From Loigolactobacillus bifermentans DSM 20003 (lineage in GTDB: Bacteria; Bacillota; Bacilli; Lactobacillales; Lactobacillaceae), in contig NZ_AZDA01000092.1 in the NCBI RefSeq assembly GCF_001434575.1, forward strand, positions 1 through 64,000: a DNA stretch of 64,000 nucleotides, written 5' to 3'. A model generated the notes under the pieces. The model saw only the letters and a list, made by a program, of their open reading frames with translations. It searched no databases and had not been told where the DNA came from. A program made the translations under genes and the position numbers. Positions 5,168 to 32,809 of the stretch are shown here, piece by piece (within the stretch, counting starts at the first letter, position 1; each line of letters starts with the position of its first letter).

Positions 5168-6346
5168 CTAATCACTGAGTTTGGTTGAATCTCGATTAAG
5201 TGTTTCGTAATAGATTTGCGCCGTTCGATAAAACTGGATCACACGATGACCAAAATGCGGTGCTGAAATCAATTCTAACTTACGCAGCCTTGGGCTCGGG
5301 TCGTTAAATACTTGTGGATGGGCTAAATAGCGTGTCACTTGCTGCACCATTTCAGGTTCTGATGTAAAGGTCGTTCCAATTGCAGGATCATCCAACAAAT
5401 CATTAGTATAAGGGCTGGCAGCCGCAACACTTTTTAGCCCACTGGCCATTGCTTCAATATAAGTGAGCCCTTGTGACTCTGATTCAGAGGCAGACAAGAA
5501 CAGGTCTGCCATATGATAATAAGCGGCAACATGTTCATTGGGAACTTCACCTGTAAAAATAACGTGTTCCCAAATCCCCAACGATTTCGCTTGATTTTGC
5601 AACGTTTCTCGAGCCGGACCATCCCCTACGATGACTAAAACCGTGTTCGGTACAACTGCTAAAATAGCTGGTAAGGCTGCAATGACCTCATCGATCTTCT
5701 TTTCAAAAGCGATGCGACTCAGTGATAATAAAACATTGGTCGTCGGTGCAATTTGCAACGCTACCCGTGGATCATCTAAAACGGGATGATCATATTGACA
5801 TAAATTAATACCCGTTGGAATGACTTCCATTGGCGTTTTCACCCCATAGCTACGCAACGTTTTTACAACCCGCGAACTAGGGGCAACAATCCCATGCATA
5901 TTGTGTAAGTACGCCCGCATTGCCTGCTTCACATGATAAGGCCGCACTAATTTACCATTTAAAATATAATGTAAATAATCCTGGTACATGGTATGGTACG
6001 TATGAACACAAGGAATATGTAAGTTTTTAGCCACGAATTTACCAATATACCCCATTGAAAATTCCGTTTGTGTGTGCACGATATCGAGTTCTAAATCACG
6101 TGCCACTTGATACGCTCGAAATAAACCACGAATTGCAATGCGTCGTTCTTTAAAGGAAATAAACGGCACACTGGCAAACCGGAAGATGTTGGGTTCAAAT
6201 TGATCCTTATCAACATCTGGATCAGTGGTTGTAAAGATATAAACGGTATGACCTTCCCGTTCTAATTCTTCTTTGAGGGTTTTAATTGAGGTGGCCACAC
6301 CGCTGACCTGCGGAAAATAGGTGTCTGTAAAAAGCCCAATATTCAC
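5168..6346 (-). CDS. GT4 glycosyltransferase, probable 1,2-diacylglycerol 3-glucosyltransferase
   Basis: A 392-residue GT-B enzyme. The N-terminus (TDTYFPQVSGVATS) is the acceptor-domain signature of diacylglycerol and phosphatidylinositol glycosyltransferases; HTYHTMYQDY and the C-terminal SESESQGLTYIEAMASGL (E-x7-E) complete the family pattern. It should transfer glucose from UDP-glucose to diacylglycerol on the inner membrane face, giving the first anchor glycolipid of lipoteichoic acid. The start codon is GTG with GGGAGG at 8-10 bases. It heads the three-gene unit glycosyltransferase, glycosyltransferase, flippase; the second gene begins 32 bases beyond its stop. Confidence 0.85.
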   Translation of the reverse strand: MNIGLFTDTYFPQVSGVATSIKTLKEELEREGHTVYIFTTTDPDVDKDQFEPNIFRFASVPFISFKERRIAIRGLFRAYQVARDLELDIVHTQTEFSMGYIGKFVAKNLHIPCVHTYHTMYQDYLHYILNGKLVRPYHVKQAMRAYLHNMHGIVAPSSRVVKTLRSYGVKTPMEVIPTGINLCQYDHPVLDDPRVALQIAPTTNVLLSLSRIAFEKKIDEVIAALPAILAVVPNTVLVIVGDGPARETLQNQAKSLGIWEHVIFTGEVPNEHVAAYYHMADLFLSASESESQGLTYIEAMASGLKSVAAASPYTNDLLDDPAIGTTFTSEPEMVQQVTRYLAHPQVFNDPSPRLRKLELISAPHFGHRVIQFYRTAQIYYETLNRDSTKLSD

Positions 6347-6550: not shown

Positions 6551-8278
6551 CTAATCTTGCTGCGTTGCTGCCTTCACCATGGCGATCACATCGTCGTTGG
6601 TTTCAGCATCTGCTAAAGCACGATCAGCTAATTGTTTCATTTCAGTTGTGTCTAATTTACGCATTAAGCTGCGAACTTTCAAAATAGAAGTTGCGCTCAT
6701 TGAGTATTCGTCTAAGCCTAAGCCGACTAAAACAGGTACCATAATGGTATCCCCAGCAGCTTCACCACACATACCGGCCCACTTGCCTTCTGCGTGTGCT
6801 GCATCAATGATTTGCTTGATCAAACGTAAGATTGATGGGTTATAAGGTTGATAGAGGTATGAAACGTGTTCATTCCCACGATCTGCAGCCATTGAATACT
6901 GGATCAAGTCGTTGGTCCCAATACTGAAGAAATCAGCATACTTGGCCAACTTGTCAGCAATCATTGCAGCTGCTGGAATTTCCATCATCATGCCGACTTC
7001 AATATCGTCAGCAACTGATGTACCTGCAGCAACTAGCTTCGCCTTTTCATCATCAAAAATAGCACGTGCATCTTTAAATTCTTTAACCGTTGCAATCATT
7101 GGGAACATGATGGCCAACTTACCGTAGTTAGAAGCACGTAGTAACGCACGTAATTGCGTGCGGAAAATTTCTTGTTGATCTAAGCTGATCCGGATTGCCC
7201 GGTAGCCTAAGAATGGGTTCATTTCTTCAGGTAATGGCAAGTATGGCAAGTGTTTGTCGCCACCAATATCCATTGTCCGAACAACGACTTGTTTCCCATT
7301 CATCCCTTCTAAAGCACTCTTGTAAGCTTCAAACTGATCATCTTCAGATGGCAATTCGGAAGCATTCATATACAAGAATTCTGAACGGAACAAACCAACA
7401 GCTTCAGCACCATTATCTGTTGCGCCTTGTACATCATCAGGCGTACCGATATTAGCAGCTGTAATTAAAGCTTTACCATCTTTGGTAACTGTTTGTTCGT
7501 TTTTCAGTTTTTCCCATTCTGCCTTTTGTTCAGCAAAATCTTGGGCTGCTTTGTCATACTTAGCCACATCAGCGTCACTAGGATCAATAATGGCATCACC
7601 GGTTAACCCGTCAACAATGACCATTTGATCAGCGGCAACGTCAGTTGTCGCTGTTTCACTCCCAACAATTGCTGGGATCTCTAATGAACGTGCCATAATT
7701 GCAGAATGGCTTGTCCGACCACCAAGGTCTGTGACAAACCCTTTAACGTACTTACGATTTAACTGTGCGGTATCACTTGGCGTTAAATCGTGAGCAATGA
7801 TGACGACTTCATCATGAATCAAAGCTGGGTTAGGTAAGGTAACCCCTAACAAATGGCTCATGATCCGCTTAGTAACGTCGCGTACATCGGCAGCACGTTC
7901 TTGCATATATGGGTTATCCGTCATGGCTTCAAACATTGCAACAAAGTTAGCTGATACGTCATGTAAGACTTGTTCAGCGTTGACCTTATCATTTTTGATG
8001 CCGGTTTCAACCGCACCAACAAATTCTGGATCAGCCAAGATCATCATATGAGCATCAAAAACCTGGGCTTCTTCTTCGCCCAGGCTTTTGGCTGCTGTAT
8101 CACGAATCATTTGTAATTCTTTGGTTGAAGCATCAACGGCATCTTTTAAACGTGCTGTTTCAGCATCAGCATCCGTGATGGACTTTTTAGAAAATGATAA
8201 ATCAGGCTGAACAAGCAAATAGGCTTTTGCTCGTGCAATGCCGTCAGAGGCGGCAATCCCTTTTAACACTTTCGTCAT
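6551..8278 (-). CDS. ptsI: phosphoenolpyruvate-protein phosphotransferase (Enzyme I)
   Basis: Cytosolic Enzyme I of the sugar phosphotransferase system. It takes phosphate from phosphoenolpyruvate and passes it to HPr. All landmarks are present in 575 residues: the phospho-His motif GGRTSHSAI (His near 191), the PEP-site blocks [10 protein letters not shown] and [12 protein letters not shown], the Mg-binding [10 protein letters not shown] and the catalytic Cys in [10 protein letters not shown]. Length is that of the family. Its ATG overlaps the ptsH stop by one base (TAATG), so the two genes are translationally coupled in the usual ptsHI operon. Confidence 0.97.
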
Positions 8279-21869: not shown

Positions 21870-24800
21870 TCACCACCCATTTCTTGTTTGTTGGATTCGT
21901 ACTGACTTATTCAATAATAACTGCATCTTCGGAAACGTTTCACTAGCAATCACACCACTATCCAACGTCATATTGACCGTTACATCGCCGGATAAAGCTT
22001 CACTAAACGCATTCAGTGCACTGGTCAGCTTATCCGTCACAGCTTGGCCAGTTGCTGAATTACTTGATGTGTTGCTACTATTTGTTACACCAGTTGGCGC
22101 TGTCGCTTGTACTGCGCGAAATCCGGAAGCCGCTTCCGGTGTTACCGTGCTAATCACAGTACCAGTCGGATCTACTTCGGCCCCAGGTAATTTCAACTGA
22201 GGCACGGCCGCCGGCTGAACTTGTTGCATGCGCTCCAGTAGCCCATTGGTCAAACTAATCGCTGATGGTCGCCAAGGGTTAATGACAAATTCGTCTTGCC
22301 CAGGCACTTCACCAATCAACGCCTGTGTTGGTCGAGTCACATGCATCCCTTCAGCCATTCGCCGATGTCCAGTTGGTCCCCAACCATGGTAGGCAATGTC
22401 GCTACGCCAATTACTATCGTTAAAGAAAGCTTTGAGCGCTGACATAGGGTCCATACTGTTACCACCAACTGAATAAGCACGGAAGGTTGAATCTTTAAAC
22501 TGTAGAATCCCTTTGGCAGGGCCAGTACCATCATGATCATCAATTCCATACTGGCTAACCCCACCAGATTCGCCTTGAATCAAGCGCTGAATCCGTGCAA
22601 TGTCGCTCGACGTGACATGAACGTGCATTGCTTCGGCAGCCTCTTTGATCATGCTCTCGTTGTACTTGCCACCTTTTGAACCATCATTCAGTTCTTTAAT
22701 GCGCCGCAAACCGGCAAATGGCAAGTTATTATGCAACGCTGAATAACCCACACCGGTAGCGGGGTCCCGCGCGGCAAAAGTCTTGTTGCCACCAATAAAC
22801 ATGGCCACGTGCTCAATCCCACCAGGTCCGTAAAATGCTAAGTCCCCAGTCTTGGCCTCTTTTTCAGAGATAGATTGTGAGCGGGCGAATTGCGCGCCAG
22901 AAAAGTGAGGATAGGTGACCCCAACCTGTTTCAAGGCCCACATAATCAGGCCGGAACAGTCAAATGAGTTTGGCCCCGTGGCACCCCAAACATACGGTTT
23001 ACCTTCCTGAGCCTTGACCTTTCTAACAAATTCACCACGTGAACCAGAACCGCTGGAACCCTCAGACATCAGTAAGTCAATCAGCGTCTTTAGCCAATTT
23101 GTTTGTTTCTTTTCAAATCCCTTAGCTGCCTGTCCATTTGCTGTACCTGCAGAACCTGAAAAATCACTCATATTAAATGATTTATCGACAAACTTATTCC
23201 AGTTTTCAAATGGATGTGTCATGAACTTGTAGGCATCCCCAAATAAATTGGTGATCCAGTCTATTACACTTGCACCAGTTCCTTTCGCGTAAAGTGGCAT
23301 GCCAACCTTGCCCATCATATCTGATATTTGTTTCGTTTGAGATCCAGAGAACACACGTGCACCTTCAGGTAGTTGTGTCATCGTTGGAATAGATGGCGAC
23401 ATTGCCAATGCACCATTACCGTAGTCAATTAATTCAGGCATATACCCATCACCAACAATCGCCGTTTCCGGAGCTGATAAAGTACCAACGGTTCCGTGGG
23501 CATAACCGCCAAATGCGCCACCGAATCCTGAAACGCGTCCTGATTTGGTTGAAACGGTATTATTAGAAACATTACCTTTTCCGCCTAGCTTATTAGATAG
23601 ATCATTCGATGTTTTGATGCCTTCGTTATAGTTGGAGTTCACACCCGCAACAATTGCTCCTGCTATATTGATTGGTAAGTAACTGTAATCATAAATCCCT
23701 TGTCCGTATCTTTTAGACGTTGTACTACCGTGTTGATGAGGTTCATCAGTCGGCGTTAATGCATGTGCTGCATTGTTTCTAACAGTGGTTGCATTACCAG
23801 AAGCTAACCCATTTTCAGCTAAAATACCGGCACTAAAATCACTACCATGTTTCTTACCATGGCTATAGGGTTGACCATCTGGTGTTAGATGTTGTGTAGC
23901 TGCATTGCGAACGGTATCTGCTGCACCTTGTGCTTCACCTTTTTTACTCTTCATCCCACTATTATAGCTATCAATGGAACTCTTACCTGATTTACTGTTA
24001 TCGCCTTTAAGTTGTTTTTTGATGAGATCTGTTAGAGCCTTATCAAATTGGCTTACTGATATTTTTCCGGATTCTAATCCTTTAACCAAGCTGGCAATGT
24101 TAACCTTACCAACACCTTTTAAGTTGACCGTGGCCTTAGTTCCAACCATTTTTGAAATAGTGGCCATTGCTGACTGCGCTTCTGGCAAACCGGCCTTTAG
24201 GCCATTGGCTAAAGTTGTAATATTCGCTTTACCAAGTTTCGTCAAATCGGTTTTAAAGATTTTCTCAAACTGCGGTCCATATTTCTTTTTCAACTCTTCA
24301 GGTTGGATTGACCCATTTTGCAGGCCATCGTGAATTGACTTCAATTCGGACTTGCTTAGGGACGATAAATCGTCTGGAAAGATTTTAGTAACATCCTTGC
24401 CGTACTTCTTCTGTAAATCAGCGGTGCTGATTGTGCCATTACGCAAGCCATCTTGTAAAGTTTTAATTTCTTGCTTGCTCAACGAAGACAGATCACTAGG
24501 AAATAAATCATAAATAGCATCCCCAAATCGGTTCTTTAAAACTTTGAGAGAGACCGTTCCAGATTCCAAGCCAGACTTTAGGGTCGCAATTTCTTGGTCA
24601 CTGGCTTTAGACAAGTCTTTAGGGAACAGGCTTAAAATCTGGTTGCCAAATACTGGTTTCAATTGGGCTAAAGTAACAACCCCTGCATTTAAGCCAGCTT
24701 TCAATTGAGCAATACCAGACTTGCCAATATCTTTTAACTTGTCATTTTCACCTTGCCAGCCTTGTAGCTGCGATTCAAAATAAACCTTTGCTTCTTCATA

Positions 24801-27800
24801 GCCCGTTTGAGAACCGGAACTAAAATCATTCCAAAAGTCTTGAGCTGTCTTGGTACCGTACTTACCGAGATCAACCTTTTGAGTAGCATTGGTAATATCA
24901 AGACCCCACTGTTTTGCAATTTGAGTGGGATTACCAACTGTTCCATTTTTTAAGCCTTTAATAAAGGAATCGTGGATGCCGGCAGCTGCTTTGCTAACTT
25001 CAGACCCAGTTTTTGTCATTTGAGCAGCTAAGTTATCCGCATCAACCTTTGCCTGGGCTTCAGCGGCTATATCAGTAAGCCCCATTTGTTGGTAGGCTTT
25101 CTTTTGATCAGTTTGAAACTGTTCTAGTTGCTTTTTGATCGTACCGTGGGCTTTTTCTTGGTCTTCAATGTATTTGGCGTTGTCCTTTTTGTGATTTTCA
25201 ATCCACTCGGCCGCACTAACCTCGCTTTGAGTAACGTCATCCCAGTAAAGCTTTTCCTTCTTACCATTTGCATCGGTAATTTCACGGGTAAATTCATCAT
25301 CCATAGACTTATGCAGTCGCAGACTCTCTTTACCGTTGTTATTGTAATGATCGTAAATAGACTTTTGTGTGTTGACCCATTCCAGGCCAGCCTTTGTTTC
25401 CTGTTCATTACGCTTAGCATCTAATAAAGATTTGGCTTGATTATATTGTTCATCAGTAATTTCCTGGTTTTTACGGGCGTCTTTTAATGTCTTGAGTTGA
25501 CTGCTGTAACTTTTTTTAGCCGCAGCAGTCGTATCATTATATGAATCTTTTGACTTCTTCAAGTCAGCTTTTAGCATTTTTTCGGTCAAATCACCATGCT
25601 GATCAGCGTAGGCTTGCTGTAGTTTCAACTGGTCTTTGTAAGCCAATCCGAATACAGAAGTCTCTTGATCAATGGTGTTTTCAGCATCTTGCAGTTGCGT
25701 CTTCTGTTCATTGGTCAGTTTGCTGAAATCACCACCAACTGATGCAAGCAAATCCGACATCATTTTCTTAGCCTTTTGCAACTTAGAAACGGTGTTATTA
25801 GTTTGTGCATTCATTGAAGTTGTGACATTGGATAGCCATGCAGACCCAGCAGGTCCAAATGATGCGGCCAATTCATTAAGCGCTGTTTGGCCTTTTGTTT
25901 TGGTCTCTTCAAACTTAGCAATCACTTTGTCTGCCATCTGACCGTATTTACTAACAACATCAGCAGAAATCTTTTGTGACTGACTAACTGTAGCAGTATC
26001 TAGCTGCGCCATATCATTAACGGCCGTTTGATGTAAATCATTGTATGACTTAATGGCCTTTTGTGAGCTGGCACTAATATCAACGCCGAATTCATCAACT
26101 GACTTCTTCGTCTTTTCGACAGCAGCCTCATGCTTTTGCGCCGACTTGTATAATTCATAGCCGGCAATTGAAACACCACCAATGGCCAAAACCGCAGGTG
26201 CAGCCGCTAACGCTAATGACCCTAATCCAGAAACTGCTGCGCTAAACGAACCACCTAACCCCAATAGTTCAGGTGTTGCACCAGCGGCGCCTTCAGCCAC
26301 TTCTCCAATGGCACCAGCTGCTTTAGGCGCTGACTTTAGACCTACATTTTCAAGCAAAGCTGCTAACGGTGTTCCGGCAGTAGTAGCTCCTTTGAAGCCT
26401 GGGCTCAATTGTGCTAACCAAGTTAACAGTTTAGGCCCATTTTCAATTAGCCCATCCATAGTAACTGTCAGCTTACTCGTCATTGACAAAACAGGCCCCA
26501 TTGCGGCAGCTGTTAAGGCCGCGTTGATAATCATCTTCTGGGTGCCTTTATCCAGACTGTTGAACCAATCAACCAGCTTCTTAGCATCATTCAATAGATC
26601 AGTGGCTAGCGGTAGCAGCTGCTGACCGGCATCAATTGCTAACACATGCAGTGACTGTTGAAATTTATCCACATTGGCCTTAGCTGTGTTGTTCATAGTG
26701 TCAGCCAGTTTCTTTGTGTATCCAGTAGCGCCTTTAGTTTGCGCAGTTAAATCACGCAACTTGTCGCCACCTTCTTGAATTAAGATGTTCATTCCAGCCT
26801 GAGCTTCGGCACCAAAAGCCTGTGATAAAGCGGCCTGCCGATTTTCAGCCGTCCAGCCCTTGGTATTGTTCTTAATCTTGTCCAACATATCAGGCAACGT
26901 CAGTGTGCCTTTCTTAAAATCTTCAACGCTAACGCCCATTTTCTTGAAGGCCGCTGTGTTCTGTGCGGTTGGATTCATTAATTGATCTAATGCACCACGT
27001 AACGCAGTCCCAGCTTTCTGGCCTTCAATCCCTTGGTTAGACATTAAGCCAATGGCCGCAGAAGTTTGTTCCAGGCTCATATTCAAGCCATGCGCTACTG
27101 GCCCAACGTATTCCATGGCTTCACCCATGTCACCGAAGCCTGCTGACGTTTTGTTAGCCACATAGCTTAAACTGTCGGTTACTCGCTGCGTGTTCTGAAT
27201 CATTTTGGCCGTATTATTCGACTTCAGACCAAACTGTTCTAGCGTGGCGGTGGAAACCTTCATCACTGAATTAAAGTCTTCTCCGGAAGCTTTAGACGCA
27301 TTGAGGATTGACCCCATAGCGCCTAATACTTGGTTGTAAGAATAACCTTTCTTCAGTAATTCGGTCATCCCGTTGTTGATGTTCGTGGTGGAAATACCAT
27401 ATTCAGTGGACCACTTCTTGCTGGCCGCACCTAAGCTATCCAGCTGCTTGCTCATTTGAGCTGCACTGGTATGCCCATCATCAAGCAATGCACCCATGGC
27501 CTTGATCTGGCTATCGAAATCAATAAAGGCTTTAGTAGCCGCGCCGGCGGCTGTGACGATTGGCACTGTCATGGTCATGGTGGCCTTAGAGCCAACTTCA
27601 CCCATCTTGGTGCCAACGTCCTTCATCCGCGTACCTAACAGCGTTACCTTGTCAGCGGCCATTGCCATTTCTGGCGATAATCCACCAACTGCCTTTTCAA
27701 GGTTTCTGGATTCGGCTACCAGTTTAGTTTGTTCCGATACAAGTTCCGCATACTTACCTTTAGCTTTTGCCACCGCTTGGGACTCTGCACCATGCTCTTC

Positions 27801-28469
27801 GGTGAGTTTGACAATGGTTGATTGTTGTTCTTTCATCTTGGCACTGTTTAAGGTTAATTCCGTGCGCAAACTAGCCAGCTTGGTAACTTGGCTAGATAAT
27901 CTAAGCCCCAGCGTTTCTTGAGCGGTAGCAACGTTTCGATAAGCCGTAACCTGTGAGGTAAGTTCAGTACGCGTTTTGGCCAATGCCTGGGCTTGCTTTT
28001 CAGTGCTATTGGTATTGCGTTGCCCCTGATCACCTTCACCTTTTTCAGCATCAGTTAATTTTTTGGTGCTGTCAGTAGCGGTCTTAGACTCATCGCCTAG
28101 TTTCTTAGTGGCGTCAGCTTGTTTCTTGGTGCTATCCGCGCCTTTTTTAGCCTGATTTGCTTGTTGCTCCTCGTTATCGGCTAACTTCTTGGTCGCTTCG
28201 GCGACGTCTTCTGTTTGACTAGCGGACTTCTTAGACTCATCCCCAGATTTCTTAGTCGCCTCAGTTTGTTTCTTTTCTGCTTCGGTTAACTTCTCCGTAG
28301 ATTCAGTAGCCTCTTTGGACTTCTCACCTAACTCATCAAGTCCCTTGCCAGCGCCAGAGCTGGTGGTGTTGCCAATCTTCTCAAAGGCTTTAGCTAAATC
28401 ATTAGCGCCCTTCAGCGCATCCTTAGTCAACGCCTCAACCTTGATTGTTACAACGTTATCTTCTGCCAT
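21870..28469 (-). CDS. tail tape measure protein with repeats, NlpC/P60 and lytic transglycosylase domains
   Basis: A 2199-residue protein that sets tail length and opens the cell wall during DNA entry. Residues 1-160 are a Lys/Ser/Thr-rich quasi-repeat coil. The TP901-type tape measure core follows (AMEYVGPVAHGLNMS, EAQAGMNILIQEGG), with hydrophobic stretches near 690 and 760. Residues about 1240-1490 hold six 41-residue repeats (DLSSLSKQEIKTLQDGL type). An NlpC/P60 domain has its Cys in NSFDCSGL near 1838 and a His in GIEHVAMFIG. A transglycosylase (SLT-like) domain has GESGG near 1965 and KGILQF. Strong AGGAGGTGAG site. Confidence 0.93.
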   Translation of the reverse strand: MAEDNVVTIKVEALTKDALKGANDLAKAFEKIGNTTSSGAGKGLDELGEKSKEATESTEKLTEAEKKQTEATKKSGDESKKSASQTEDVAEATKKLADNEEQQANQAKKGADSTKKQADATKKLGDESKTATDSTKKLTDAEKGEGDQGQRNTNSTEKQAQALAKTRTELTSQVTAYRNVATAQETLGLRLSSQVTKLASLRTELTLNSAKMKEQQSTIVKLTEEHGAESQAVAKAKGKYAELVSEQTKLVAESRNLEKAVGGLSPEMAMAADKVTLLGTRMKDVGTKMGEVGSKATMTMTVPIVTAAGAATKAFIDFDSQIKAMGALLDDGHTSAAQMSKQLDSLGAASKKWSTEYGISTTNINNGMTELLKKGYSYNQVLGAMGSILNASKASGEDFNSVMKVSTATLEQFGLKSNNTAKMIQNTQRVTDSLSYVANKTSAGFGDMGEAMEYVGPVAHGLNMSLEQTSAAIGLMSNQGIEGQKAGTALRGALDQLMNPTAQNTAAFKKMGVSVEDFKKGTLTLPDMLDKIKNNTKGWTAENRQAALSQAFGAEAQAGMNILIQEGGDKLRDLTAQTKGATGYTKKLADTMNNTAKANVDKFQQSLHVLAIDAGQQLLPLATDLLNDAKKLVDWFNSLDKGTQKMIINAALTAAAMGPVLSMTSKLTVTMDGLIENGPKLLTWLAQLSPGFKGATTAGTPLAALLENVGLKSAPKAAGAIGEVAEGAAGATPELLGLGGSFSAAVSGLGSLALAAAPAVLAIGGVSIAGYELYKSAQKHEAAVEKTKKSVDEFGVDISASSQKAIKSYNDLHQTAVNDMAQLDTATVSQSQKISADVVSKYGQMADKVIAKFEETKTKGQTALNELAASFGPAGSAWLSNVTTSMNAQTNNTVSKLQKAKKMMSDLLASVGGDFSKLTNEQKTQLQDAENTIDQETSVFGLAYKDQLKLQQAYADQHGDLTEKMLKADLKKSKDSYNDTTAAAKKSYSSQLKTLKDARKNQEITDEQYNQAKSLLDAKRNEQETKAGLEWVNTQKSIYDHYNNNGKESLRLHKSMDDEFTREITDANGKKEKLYWDDVTQSEVSAAEWIENHKKDNAKYIEDQEKAHGTIKKQLEQFQTDQKKAYQQMGLTDIAAEAQAKVDADNLAAQMTKTGSEVSKAAAGIHDSFIKGLKNGTVGNPTQIAKQWGLDITNATQKVDLGKYGTKTAQDFWNDFSSGSQTGYEEAKVYFESQLQGWQGENDKLKDIGKSGIAQLKAGLNAGVVTLAQLKPVFGNQILSLFPKDLSKASDQEIATLKSGLESGTVSLKVLKNRFGDAIYDLFPSDLSSLSKQEIKTLQDGLRNGTISTADLQKKYGKDVTKIFPDDLSSLSKSELKSIHDGLQNGSIQPEELKKKYGPQFEKIFKTDLTKLGKANITTLANGLKAGLPEAQSAMATISKMVGTKATVNLKGVGKVNIASLVKGLESGKISVSQFDKALTDLIKKQLKGDNSKSGKSSIDSYNSGMKSKKGEAQGAADTVRNAATQHLTPDGQPYSHGKKHGSDFSAGILAENGLASGNATTVRNNAAHALTPTDEPHQHGSTTSKRYGQGIYDYSYLPINIAGAIVAGVNSNYNEGIKTSNDLSNKLGGKGNVSNNTVSTKSGRVSGFGGAFGGYAHGTVGTLSAPETAIVGDGYMPELIDYGNGALAMSPSIPTMTQLPEGARVFSGSQTKQISDMMGKVGMPLYAKGTGASVIDWITNLFGDAYKFMTHPFENWNKFVDKSFNMSDFSGSAGTANGQAAKGFEKKQTNWLKTLIDLLMSEGSSGSGSRGEFVRKVKAQEGKPYVWGATGPNSFDCSGLIMWALKQVGVTYPHFSGAQFARSQSISEKEAKTGDLAFYGPGGIEHVAMFIGGNKTFAARDPATGVGYSALHNNLPFAGLRRIKELNDGSKGGKYNESMIKEAAEAMHVHVTSSDIARIQRLIQGESGGVSQYGIDDHDGTGPAKGILQFKDSTFRAYSVGGNSMDPMSALKAFFNDSNWRSDIAYHGWGPTGHRRMAEGMHVTRPTQALIGEVPGQDEFVINPWRPSAISLTNGLLERMQQVQPAAVPQLKLPGAEVDPTGTVISTVTPEAASGFRAVQATAPTGVTNSSNTSSNSATGQAVTDKLTSALNAFSEALSGDVTVNMTLDSGVIASETFPKMQLLLNKSVRIQQTRNGW

Positions 28470-29841: not shown

Positions 29842-30114
29842 CTACTTAGAGGCGTCGGAAGTTACAGTAGCGCCATCATCAGTTGGTGCTGCATTGACTT
29901 TATCAGGATCTTCAGGTGGTGTATTGACTGTAAAGCCAGGCACATCCACCATCGCTGATTCCTCTTTAGTATCAGCGTCGTAGCGTGAAATCTGGTAATC
30001 ACCGGCGGCTACGACCGTCCCAGCTGTTAGGCCAGTAATTGTAACCGTTGTATCATCCCCAGTAAACGCTACATCAGTTGTACCTTTCTTATAAATCCGT
30101 AAAACTTTTGCCAT
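29842..30114 (-). CDS. small tail-region protein with the shared C-terminal peptide
   Basis: A 90-residue protein. Residues 1-65 look like a small beta-sandwich (TVTITGLTAGTVVAAGDYQIS). The C-terminus VNAAPTDDGATVTSDASK repeats, in frame, the peptide added by -1 frameshifting to the capsid and tail tube proteins of this phage. It follows the tail tube gene with its own AAGGAAG site. It may be a minor tail or decoration protein; family not recognised. Confidence 0.65.
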   Translation of the reverse strand: MAKVLRIYKKGTTDVAFTGDDTTVTITGLTAGTVVAAGDYQISRYDADTKEESAMVDVPGFTVNTPPEDPDKVNAAPTDDGATVTSDASK

Positions 30115-30147
30115 AATAATGACTTCCTTTCGTATTCAACCAAATAA

Positions 30148-30219
30148 CTACTTAGCAGTAACAATGGCCCCTTCATCGGTTGGTGCTGCCTGCACGTCCG
30201 TTGGGGCTACTGTTTTGGG
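30148..30219 (-). other. programmed -1 frameshift and 21-residue extension of the tail tube protein
   Basis: The zero frame reads C-CCA-AAA just before CAG-TAG (heptamer at 30213-30219), a canonical X-XXY-YYZ slippery site. The -1 frame then runs TVAPTDVQAAPTDEGAIVTAK to a TAG at 30148. The extension matches the ends of two other structural proteins of this phage. The same heptamer is reported to give long tail and head proteins in Lactobacillus phage A2 (from memory). Confidence 0.8.
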
Positions 30220-31052
30220 TCCGTTTTAGTATCTCCAGTGGTGCCTGTACTGTCGGCTGGTGGATTAGACCCATCATTGCTTTGAGTCACACTTGGATCG
30301 GGTATTGAGCTACCTACCGATTGCATAGCGGCAACAGCAGTCATGCCTAAACGACCTTGCAATTCTTTAAGTGTTGCAGGACGGCTGTTAGCAACATCAC
30401 CATCAAGAGAAGCAGATGCTGCAGCAACCGGTTCATATGTTTTAATGGTGCCGTCTTCTTGTGGTTGACGTAATGGCACGCCTAAAATACCTGAGTTCTG
30501 ACAAGGTGTCTGGGTTAGGACTTCATTAAGTCCTGCCAAATCCGTTTTGGAGTCTTGCGCTTGCAAATACGTAGCAGTCGCTTTGAAACTCCCATTATCA
30601 TCGGCAGTACCACCACCATCATCAATATCACTCATGGTGGATAAGCCGCTTTCGGTAGTGGCTAAAGTCAAAGAATTATCATTGTTCTGAATATAATGAT
30701 TCTTCCGGAACCACATTTCACGCTGAGAACCTACCTTAGACTTCAGTGATGCAATCAAATCTTGGGCCATACCACCGATAGAACGATCACCGGTAATGTC
30801 ATAACTTTCAGTAACACCAGTTACGGTGGTTTGTTCATTACCACCACCATCTTGATAGGCAGCGGTTTTCTTTTTATCGGTGTATTTGGGTGTGACACCA
30901 GTAATCCCATCCCCGAGGTAAGCCCATAAGATTGGGTCACCAAGTTGTAGCGGCTTAAGGCCCACCCAGTATTCATCCAGAAAGTTTGGTGCAATATTCC
31001 CTCGGAAATCGACGTTATCCGTAGGGCCGTACTTTGTTTGTGTATCAACCAT
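30207..31052 (-). CDS. major tail tube protein
   Basis: A 281-residue tail tube subunit of the TP901/phage-tail-tube type (LDEYWVGLKPLQLGDPILWAYLG, ITGDRSIGGMAQDLI), located between the head-completion genes and the tail chaperones. The C-terminal 50 residues are low-complexity Ser/Thr/Asp/Pro. It ends at DPKQ after the slippery heptamer CCCAAAA; a -1 slip there gives a 301-residue long form (see 30148-30219). The ATG stands behind AGGAGG. Confidence 0.88.
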   Translation of the reverse strand: MVDTQTKYGPTDNVDFRGNIAPNFLDEYWVGLKPLQLGDPILWAYLGDGITGVTPKYTDKKKTAAYQDGGGNEQTTVTGVTESYDITGDRSIGGMAQDLIASLKSKVGSQREMWFRKNHYIQNNDNSLTLATTESGLSTMSDIDDGGGTADDNGSFKATATYLQAQDSKTDLAGLNEVLTQTPCQNSGILGVPLRQPQEDGTIKTYEPVAAASASLDGDVANSRPATLKELQGRLGMTAVAAMQSVGSSIPDPSVTQSNDGSNPPADSTGTTGDTKTDPKQ

Positions 31053-31063
31053 GTTGGTTCCTC

Positions 31064-31498
31064 CTAATTAATAATGATGTCGACACGAAAGACCGCACGA
31101 ACCACAGAATAAATATCAGATGTGGTCTGCTGATCATCCATGTCTTGTACATTGGCCACATCGGCCGGTGTTGCAATCATTTCAGCGCGTTGAAATTGGA
31201 ACGACTTGTTCCGGCTGCTAATGGCAAAGCCTGTTGCTCGTTCCATGACGGTCATCATCTGGCTAAGCGTATCCGTTGCGATTGGTTCACTGAGATGCTT
31301 GGCGTCAATCGTAAACGAATAAGAACGCTTCACACGCCCATTCAAATACCGTTGCCGACCACCAGTAGGCGACATGATATAAGTGATCGTATTGCCGTTC
31401 TCATAGACACCAGCTTTACGAATCGGTGCATACAAAGAGACGTGATCCGTTAGGTATTGCAATACCGCCTGGTCCACGTCTAACGTTTTCGTATTCAA
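31064..31498 (-). CDS. minor capsid protein 3-type / tail terminator
   Basis: A 144-residue protein (DQAVLQYLTDHVSLYAPIRKAG, then RSYSFTIDAKHLSEP), third of a set of three small head-completion proteins before the tail tube gene. This matches the minor capsid 3 family, whose place corresponds to the tail terminator that caps the tube. It starts with TTG behind GAGGTG. Confidence 0.7.
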   Translation of the reverse strand: MNTKTLDVDQAVLQYLTDHVSLYAPIRKAGVYENGNTITYIMSPTGGRQRYLNGRVKRSYSFTIDAKHLSEPIATDTLSQMMTVMERATGFAISSRNKSFQFQRAEMIATPADVANVQDMDDQQTTSDIYSVVRAVFRVDIIIN

Positions 31499-31504
31499 TT
31501 ATGC

Positions 31505-31921
31505 TCACCTCACAATTGTCGCAGTTACTTGGTGATTAACGTAAGCAGCACCTGATTTACTGGCCAAAGCTACCTGGTCCCATCGTGCACTGGCATTTGG
31601 GTGATAGGTCTTGGTGTAGTTCAAGCCTTGTTCAGTCGCTACCTTCTTGACGCCCTTTTTAGCCTGCCAACCGTATGGCGTACCTACTGGATAAACCATT
31701 GTTTTGCCAGCGTAGACATAGCGAGCATAAGGACGGTCCCAATGTAAATAAACAGCATTGGTATCTTGCGTTTTAGTATGACTCTTTGCCAGGTCACCCG
31801 TTAATTGCGGCACATACTCTTCTGACACTACCAATACAGCATCCGCCGCAACATTAGCCACCGTTAAGGGATTAAACGACGCTGTAAGTGCACCAAAATC
31901 CACAGCAACATTAATGATCAT
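31505..31921 (-). CDS. minor capsid protein 2-type head-tail completion protein
   Basis: About 138 residues with the family signature TGDLAKSHTK, HWDRPYARYVYAG and YPVGTPYGW near the middle, typical of the minor capsid 2 / tail completion family. I use the ATG at 31921 (GGAGG 10 bases upstream). It lies between two other connector genes with short spacing. Confidence 0.75.
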   Translation of the reverse strand: MIINVAVDFGALTASFNPLTVANVAADAVLVVSEEYVPQLTGDLAKSHTKTQDTNAVYLHWDRPYARYVYAGKTMVYPVGTPYGWQAKKGVKKVATEQGLNYTKTYHPNASARWDQVALASKSGAAYVNHQVTATIVR

Positions 31922-32304
31922 TCCAGCGTCACCTCCCAATGATGTGGTTGCGTTGGGTTAAACGTATAAATCGGGACTACTTCAGATACCTTAAACGTTT
32001 GACCAGTCTCTAACCAAGTCACTGCATCTTGTAGTTGTAATGCCTGGGCTGGGTCAGAGTTAACACGATCAATAAACAACGTATGCACATTAACACTCGT
32101 GTACACATTAGTATTATTCGAAGCGTTCGCCAACACCTTCTTGGTATCCGGTTGAATCAAAACATGCTGAATCGTGATCTCATCACTGTCAGCAGTCGCC
32201 ACGGCCGTCCCCGCAGGCGCATAATCGCCAGTTTGCCAGTTGGACTTCGCCAGCGATTGATACGGCTTGACCTTGATGCTATGAATCAACATCTCTAATG
32301 GCAT
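31918..32304 (-). CDS. minor capsid protein 1-type head-closure protein
   Basis: A strand-rich protein (SIKVKPYQSLAKSNW, then VHTLFIDRVNSD and WLETGQTFKVSEV) in the head-closure position. Start is uncertain: the open frame reaches 32358, overlapping the upstream gene by 44 bases, but ATGs at 32304 or 32292 fit better. It ends overlapping the next start. Confidence 0.7.
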   Translation of the reverse strand: MPLEMLIHSIKVKPYQSLAKSNWQTGDYAPAGTAVATADSDEITIQHVLIQPDTKKVLANASNNTNVYTSVNVHTLFIDRVNSDPAQALQLQDAVTWLETGQTFKVSEVVPIYTFNPTQPHHWEVTLE

Positions 32305-32314
32305 TGCTTCAATA

Positions 32315-32722
32315 TCATCCAAATTGTCCAACTCCTCTAAATAGCAAACCAGTATCACGCAATGCGTTGATAGCCTCTAGCGAGTTCGTGGCAGTAGCTC
32401 GGCTTGGTCGGGAGCCACTATCCTTCGAATAGCTAAACTTACCCGCAGACGCTGTTTTAATGGCCCCAGCTTGCCGGCCAAGTTCATTGATATCGCCAAG
32501 TGTGATAAAATACTCGATTTGCAAGCACAACGCCTGCTTCACAGCTTCACGGTCTGACTCGTAGCGCAAATCAGCTAATGTGTGCTGGCTAAAATAATGC
32601 TGCGTGTACTCATTCAACTTCAATTCAGCACGATATTCTAAACGGTCCCAGTCCATTTTGCCTGGATCCAGGCCGTGGAATACATTGTCGTAGTATTTAC
32701 GCTCAATTAACGGCTCTGCCAT
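32315..32722 (-). CDS. head-tail connector (adaptor) protein
   Basis: About 135 residues, mostly helical (DRLEYRAELKLNEYTQHYF, then VKQALCLQIEYFITLGD), as in DNA-packaging adaptor proteins that dock below the portal. The ATG at 32722 has GGAGGG at 5-6 bases. First gene after the capsid gene. Confidence 0.75.
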   Translation of the reverse strand: MAEPLIERKYYDNVFHGLDPGKMDWDRLEYRAELKLNEYTQHYFSQHTLADLRYESDREAVKQALCLQIEYFITLGDINELGRQAGAIKTASAGKFSYSKDSGSRPSRATATNSLEAINALRDTGLLFRGVGQFG

Positions 32723-32737
32723 TGTCATCCCTCCTTG

Positions 32738-32809
32738 TTACTTTGCGGTGATCAGCGCCCCTTCATCAGTCGCCTGCGCTGCTATGGCTGACGGGGCCGT
32801 TATTTTGCC
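32738..32809 (-). other. probable -1 frameshift and 21-residue extension of the major capsid protein
   Basis: The zero-frame capsid ends GCA-AAA-TAA. From the last A the -1 frame reads ITAPSAIAAQATDEGALITAK to a TAA at 32738, the same length and nearly the same peptide as the tail tube extension. The slip site is GGCAAAA, weaker than CCCAAAA because the first triplet is not uniform, but A-AAA allows tRNA-Lys re-pairing. Confidence 0.65.

Follow-up and report, generated by a model that had tools for sequence, protein, structure and literature searches.

The stretch of DNA analysed here (the window) comprises 64,000 nucleotides of Loigolactobacillus bifermentans DSM 20003 (contig NZ_AZDA01000092.1, positions 1 to 64,000) and carries on its minus strand a siphovirus prophage with genes for a scaffold, a capsid protein, connectors, a tail tube protein, a protein of 90 residues (hereafter P90), a Gp15-type protein and a tape measure (Table 1). 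The capsid gene ends in GCA AAA TAA, and its -1 frame continues for 21 residues (ITAPSAIAAQATDEGALITAK) before a stop is reached; the tube gene ends in CCA AAA CAG TAG, and its -1 frame likewise continues for 21 residues (TVAPTDVQAAPTDEGAIVTAK) and then stops. At both gene ends, the out-of-frame open stretch directly follows a slip-prone site and is kept in relatives, and in both proteins a low-complexity, flexible spacer (judged by eye) precedes this site. P90 ends in its normal frame with DPDKVNAAPTDDGATVTSDASK; upstream of its ATG lies AAAGGAAG, which resembles a ribosome-binding site. Concerning the RNA, a GCCCC situated just past the stop of both extensions (32720-32800 and 30130-30209) can pair with a GGGGC in the codons for DEGA within them.

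Table 1. Features of the prophage and of one related protein; "plug" and "socket" denote proposed roles; FN3, fibronectin type III; FN3 strands are predicted.
Feature	Position	Strand	Basis
Major capsid protein gene, 344 aa	32800..33834	(-)	Pfam Phage_capsid 1.5e-29; phrog_10 6.5e-53
Capsid gene stop codon	32802-32800	(-)	
Slip-prone A_AAA_TAA overlapping the capsid stop	32800..32806	(-)	Sequence only; putative slip site
Capsid -1 extension, 21 residues + stop; proposed plug (FN3 strands A-B)	32738..32803	(-)	Sequence, tag profiles, relatives
Major tail (tube) protein gene, 281 aa	30207..31052	(-)	phrog_820 7.7e-20
Tube gene stop codon	30209-30207	(-)	
Slippery heptamer CCCAAAA upstream of the tube stop	30213..30219	(-)	From the nucleotide letters alone
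Tube -1 extension, 21 residues + stop; proposed plug (FN3 strands A-B)	30148..30213	(-)	Tag profiles; AlphaFold model
P90 gene (90 residues), proposed socket protein	29842..30114	(-)	phrog_341 3.8e-14; own ATG
P90 core, about residues 1-64; predicted FN3 strands C-G, no A-B hairpin ahead	29923..30114	(-)	AlphaFold, VIA-align, family alignments
P90's own C-terminal plug (proposed), outside the first modelled domain	29845..29910	(-)	Model strands 106-112 and 115-121; VIA-align matches cover residues 1-101
Core-CotH-hairpin-core protein, following the tube gene in a lactobacillus prophage	L279 8284-9990; L283 4684-6393	L279 (-)	

The three ends share one terminal peptide of about 20 residues (hereafter the tag). 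A first-pass annotation, made from the letters of the window, had claimed one common peptide on three virion-related proteins, twice in a shifted frame and once in the normal one; profiles and a genome scan confirm the three ends, and the sequence gives the frames, both shifts being -1. A leave-out profile built from ten tags of other loci, the tags of the window being excluded, scores 29.2 bits for the tube, 23.6 for P90 and 12.5 for the capsid; in 40 Markov-randomised versions of the window, with 118,964 C-termini in all, the top score is 10.8 bits. In the host genome (3.13 Mb), a profile of 16 rows, which includes the tube and capsid tags of the window and excludes that of P90, matches at E <=5 exactly these three ends (E 5.6e-5, 3.8e-4 and 0.09). 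Capsid and tube tags of the same phage show a likeness of 0.58 and those of different phages 0.30 (12 phages, i.e., those in which both tags had been noticed); after removal of three near-duplicates, permutation among nine phages gave P 5e-5 for the within-phage likeness, which is the minimum attainable with 20,000 shuffles. Such likeness would be expected from shared descent of both tags as well as from a shared partner.

Relatives were gathered from viral contigs, from genomes and with more divergent queries of the P90 core. The window tube protein finds tblastn matches in 22 phage records, and 40 viral-contig loci encode a related tube protein, one of which (L003) represents the same phage as the window. 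Independent variation of the three ends among relatives, named in the first-pass annotation as the outcome that would speak against it, was looked for, and the opposite was found: all 35 loci L008-L042 possess a -1 tag on the capsid and a -1 tag on the tube protein, and in all of them P90 ends in the motif (a stricter pattern overlooked the P90 end in L026 and L041). The window capsid protein, at most 63% identical to that of Listeria phage A118, has no match in these 35 loci, and the only capsid tested among them (L008) belongs to the TP901-1/A500 type; P90 is situated there behind the capsid gene, not behind the tube gene. Since these loci differ in both respects and are tagged nevertheless, the tag persists across a change of capsid family and of P90 position. 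L006 and L007 encode their tube tag in the normal frame. In L004 and L005 no P90 was found, and the genes examined bear no tag.

Concerning named phages, a tblastn search with the window P90 yields no match, even at E 10. The tag is reached there by several routes: in the +1 frame in Latilactobacillus phage TMW 1.2272 P1 (KPQTATVETTDTTAVFTIA on the capsid, KPQTATVETTDTTAKFTIS on the tube protein), whose P90-like protein is without a tag, and in EfaCPT1 (both proteins); in the -1 frame on both proteins of iLp84; and in phiEf11 in the -1 frame on the capsid and in frame on the tube protein. In the Lactobacillus phage iLp84 (L309, 4974-5351), a long threonine-rich tail follows the core, and the spacers of capsid and tube protein are threonine runs as well. 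Two proteins of 484 and 241 amino acids in L195 share an in-frame terminal tag (PVVGTITPTGDGATIELS), so that neither requires a frameshift.

P90-core genes are widespread in phages of Lactobacillales. Within the host's family, a P90 profile finds matches in 46 of 397 genomes (that of the host counted); a core profile, run on 395 genomes of the order, matches 22, of which 12 belong to other families. In the regions from these 12 genomes, inspected by eye, the capsid bears a tag in 11 (the stretch of L296 being without a capsid gene) and the tube protein in 11 (in frame in L301), and none of the 12 cores has a hairpin of its own at threshold. Altogether, 139 core loci were merged to 60 distinct ones (85% identity of one core). 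Outside the core open reading frames, a tag is found in 51 of these 60, and 32 contain two matches, among which the second of L007 is weak and short and both of L188 lie in one open reading frame. The counting profile consisted of 22 tags chosen by eye from the same loci and their relatives, and its 9-bit threshold was our own choice; it is therefore the control runs and the leave-out test that carry weight. In the 139 core loci the counting profile matches 308 times in sense (the cores' own tags counted) and 16 times in antisense orientation, and the controls gave two matches in 79 Pseudomonas loci (1.25 Mb) and one in 11 phage loci without a core. These 79 Pseudomonas loci, of 80 obtained in one search, were rejected as relatives; in the four viewed by eye, the match lies inside a substrate-binding-like protein.

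The complete domain formed by tag and P90 core is predicted to have a fibronectin type III (FN3) fold. Tube tag and P90 lie in one and the same frame in the window and can be read as one chain; the chain modelled comprised the tube tag, the linker and P90, the two stops being read as residues. AlphaFold (19 sequences) gave a mean predicted local distance difference test (pLDDT) of 83.7 and a predicted template modelling score of 0.68; the tag forms strands 6-13 and 16-22, in the place of FN3 strands A and B, which the cores are missing. With VIA-align, residues 1-100 of the model align to single FN3 domains (7jgt: Z 10.4, root-mean-square deviation 2.2, 85 residues aligned; 1k85: Z 10.0, 2.1, 85 residues), Z being at least 8 for 214 of 999 chains. 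In the predicted model, residues 1-100 of the chain of tag and P90 thus show the seven-strand order A-G. P90 would accordingly consist of strands C-G, with what looks like the opening hairpin of another domain behind them. Hairpin and core occur naturally fused at the C-terminus of the L279/L283 protein, the only case among the core reading frames surveyed by eye in which a hairpin stands ahead of a core, consecutively in one chain; its model (pLDDT 80.1) aligns to 1k85 with Z 10.0 over residues 5-95. This protein measures 569 residues from stop to stop, begins with a core and contains a CotH kinase domain (PF08757, 6.3e-16).

Because the peptide corresponds to an FN3 A-B hairpin and P90 resembles the remainder of such a domain plus a second hairpin, P90-type proteins are indicated as the partner of the tag. 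Among the functions that the first-pass annotation had put forward, partner binding fits this picture, whereas contact of the peptide itself with the cell surface is not supported. We consider it quite probable that a split FN3 domain serves as plug and socket by which decorations dock on head and tail. From genes and models we infer frameshift products, docking in trans, a chain and a display purpose, as follows. Translation of the capsid and tube genes would yield mostly the plain protein, and -1 slipping a minority carrying on its flexible spacer the 21-residue plug, i.e., the A-B hairpin. P90, made from its own start, would be the socket (strands C-G), take up the plug as strands A and B, complete its fold and thereby become fixed to head or tail; its own plug could accept a further P90, head to tail, such that a chain arises, and plug-less relatives of P90 may act as caps or carriers of cargo. 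The purpose would be to display adhesive or enzymatic modules. Frameshifting could plausibly give rise to copy levels that differ between head and tail, as had been suggested initially.

Both parts are present within P90 itself, and 27 of the 60 distinct cores have a hairpin of their own. P90 might therefore close on itself as a circularly permuted FN3 domain, its hairpin occupying the A-B place, the capsid and tube tags then binding the host surface or another virion protein; that the outside tag is internal and weaker in some contractile-tail phages would agree with this. We regard it as improbable: the other 33 cores have no hairpin at threshold, and 29 of these 33 are accompanied by an outside tag. 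When two hairpins are available in one chain, as in the model, the FN3 matches take the N-terminal tag, P90's own hairpin lying beyond most matches. Moreover, the stretch between strand G and this hairpin is as long as the linkers in tandem FN3 domains (four residues less in L016), which, from general knowledge of FN3 geometry, is judged too short for folding back.

Somewhat less probable still is that the peptide is an independent ligand for cell wall, mucus or another surface, copied onto several virion proteins. It does follow flexible spacers on outward-facing proteins, and frameshifted immunoglobulin-like (Ig-like) or FN3 extensions elsewhere have been proposed as cell-surface binders in those parts of the literature covered. 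Against a free ligand stand its modelling as part of an FN3 domain together with P90 and its co-occurrence with core genes; in addition, the peptide is variable among phages (e.g., STPPVVGQVTTTETSASIELS) and alike within a phage.

A covalent connection, with a second shift or a stop read-through linking tag and P90 as in SPP1 gp17.1*, would agree with the common frame of tube tag and P90 in the window, where two stops lie in between, and with the natural covalent form in L279/L283. Where a tag adjoins the core, however, the two mostly lie in different frames, no core follows the capsid tag of the window or the tube tag in L008-L042, and P90 has its own start with a ribosome-binding-like site; we consider this connection very unlikely. 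Just as doubtful is that the tags are relics, i.e., decayed or truncated Ig-like extensions without present function, despite the full Ig-like domains at the same places in A2, A118 and A500, since length and motif stay the same from one host family to another, whether the tag is reached by a -1 shift, by a +1 shift or in frame, and on capsids of different families, and the core gene is retained.

The tag is not confined to one kind of lattice protein. The tagged capsids tested belong to three PHROG families (phrog_10, 544 and 29), and the tag is reached in the -1, the +1 or the normal frame; PHROG assignment covered the window, L008, L307, L295, L299, L264, L247 and L283, the other assignments as capsid, tube or sheath being based mostly on size, position and likeness. 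In contractile-tail prophages (L247, L256, L259, L260, L264, L267 and L271; others weaker) the tag is internal, at about residues 90-115 of a protein of 364-402 residues, which in L264 is the tail sheath (phrog_205, 2e-31) and in the remaining ones was assigned by likeness. L259 and L264 do have a plug because the sheath tag is present, though their cores are without a hairpin and their capsids without a tag. At the usual place of the tag, an HeH/LEM-like stretch follows the capsid gene or overlaps it in a different frame in L256, L257, L259, L283, L046 and L047, and HeH/LEM is annotated at the corresponding capsid stretch in A118 and A500.

Behind the core there follows nothing, a hairpin, Big_2, FN3, CBM_4_9, CotH kinase or serine-rich sequence. 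In L188 (1507-2145) a core is joined to a carbohydrate-binding CBM_4_9 domain (4.7e-5, slightly below the Pfam cut-off), and the same locus contains a core with plug. Loci with two cores that pair a hairpin-ended with a hairpin-less unit are L181, L188, L257, L260 and, in Staphylococcus phage SEP1 (L308), gp162/gp164; an extender and a cap would show such pairing. The SEP1 core proteins gp164 and gp162 (5591-5932 and 6998-7276) are both annotated as major tail protein, and the core finds matches in hundreds of Staphylococcus phage records.

Concerning the particles themselves, the enterococcal phage vB_EfaS-271 possesses +1 tags on capsid (STPPVVGQVTPSETSATIELS) and tube protein (STPPVVGQVTPAETSATIELT), and its gp11 is a hairpin-less core of 66 residues (E 9.2e-23). 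According to Table 2 of its proteome report (PMC7503890), CsCl-purified particles contain gp11 (7.0 kDa, 5 peptides, 93.94% coverage), labelled there as major tail protein.

Several observations weigh against the split domain. The table for vB_EfaS-271 also includes lysin and DNA polymerase (PMC7503890), so that the presence of gp11 alone does not prove its attachment to the virion, and the parts of that paper covered mention no extensions. The model unites tag and P90 in one chain by way of the two stops taken as residues. For tag plus P90 no Pfam match is obtained at E <=10, the FN3 model included; nor is there one for the P90 of the window, L008 or L007. All Foldseek matches lie above E 0.001 (best 2.4e-3), and a profile search of the sequences of solved structures yields at best weak fibronectin matches (1fnh, 1.9e-4). 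The FN3 fold thus rests on the models, given that sequence profiles do not call P90 an FN3 domain and Foldseek gives nothing below E 0.001. Downstream of both slip sites, the RNA is predicted to fold no more strongly than shuffled sequence does (z 0.67 and -1.0).

Concerning distribution, an outside tag at threshold is missing in nine of the 60 core loci: in L181 and L187 the sequence starts at a contig end, inside or just ahead of the core, L277 has an in-frame tube end (PTNVNVTNEGAVTAE) under threshold, L279 (the same as L283) a weak +1 peptide, and in L258, L265, L280, L281 and L282 no outside tag was seen. L303 has no tube tag, L007 no visible capsid tag, and on some capsids an HeH-type extension replaces the tag. 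In the SEP1 record the tag profile finds gp162's own hairpin and no further tag, and neither of the two cores of L271 has a hairpin at threshold, contrary to an extender and a cap.

Beyond the window, we lean, with less assurance than for the split domain itself, towards a general tag-and-catcher standard: a hairpin plug on an outward lattice protein (capsid, tube or sheath), an FN3 socket with swappable cargo, chains of extenders and caps by hairpin exchange, and a frameshift rate that sets the number of docking points. If the split domain is true, many proteins that at present frequently bear the label "major tail protein" would acquire a function (at E 1e-3, an enterococcal core member finds matches in 578 phage records, counted as matches without individual inspection), and short, overlooked out-of-frame peptides would be explained. 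As a separate observation, the tape-measure protein of the window (2199 amino acids, 21870-28469) contains near its C-terminus stretches that by eye resemble NlpC/P60 and lytic transglycosylase domains.

That capsids and tails of phages can bear frameshifted Ig-like and FN3 extensions is already well known. For the presence of the same thing on head and tail in some phages, a split domain would give a testable reason, namely a single accessory protein that, dosed by frameshifting, docks on both. Frameshifted Ig-like domains are described on capsid and tail proteins of A2, PSA, A118 and A500 in the sections of PMC5009743 covered, an FN3 extension (gp17.1*) at 3:1 in SPP1 in those of PMC8718954, and in the 936 lactococcal phages TpeX, a frameshift-dosed carbohydrate-binding module on the major tail protein along the tail, in those of PMC6669499. 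There is a likeness to A2, PSA, A118, A500, T3 and SPP1 gp17.1*: minor, C-terminally extended capsid or tube forms arise there by -1 or +1 slipping, with Ig or FN3 folds and at the same gene positions, and CCCCAAAAGCG precedes the stops of the A2 capsid and tube genes. In those phages, however, the whole domain is covalent, whereas the phage of the window would append only the A-B hairpin, the remainder being encoded by a gene of its own, whose product has a hairpin at its end as well or bears cargo; its extension of 21 residues, compared with 81-87 in A2, A118 and A500, is not a complete Ig-like or FN3 domain. TpeX is covalent as well and restricted to the tail, and the covered part of its description mentions neither a separate socket protein nor a shared capsid tag. 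The open-access papers searched yielded no account of a domain divided between a virion protein and a socket made as a separate protein, subscription papers lying mostly outside this search.

Outside phages, donor-strand complementation in chaperone-usher pili is comparable: an incomplete Ig-like subunit is finished by a segment of another chain, and head-to-tail chains are possible. The system proposed here from genes and models differs in that a two-strand hairpin of an FN3-like fold would be exchanged, on phage virions and in frameshift-dosed amounts. SpyTag/SpyCatcher is an engineered pair, made by dividing a domain such that a short peptide and its larger counterpart are separate; the pair of the window is natural and presumably non-covalent and would, if true, constitute an evolved tag and catcher for decorating phage particles.

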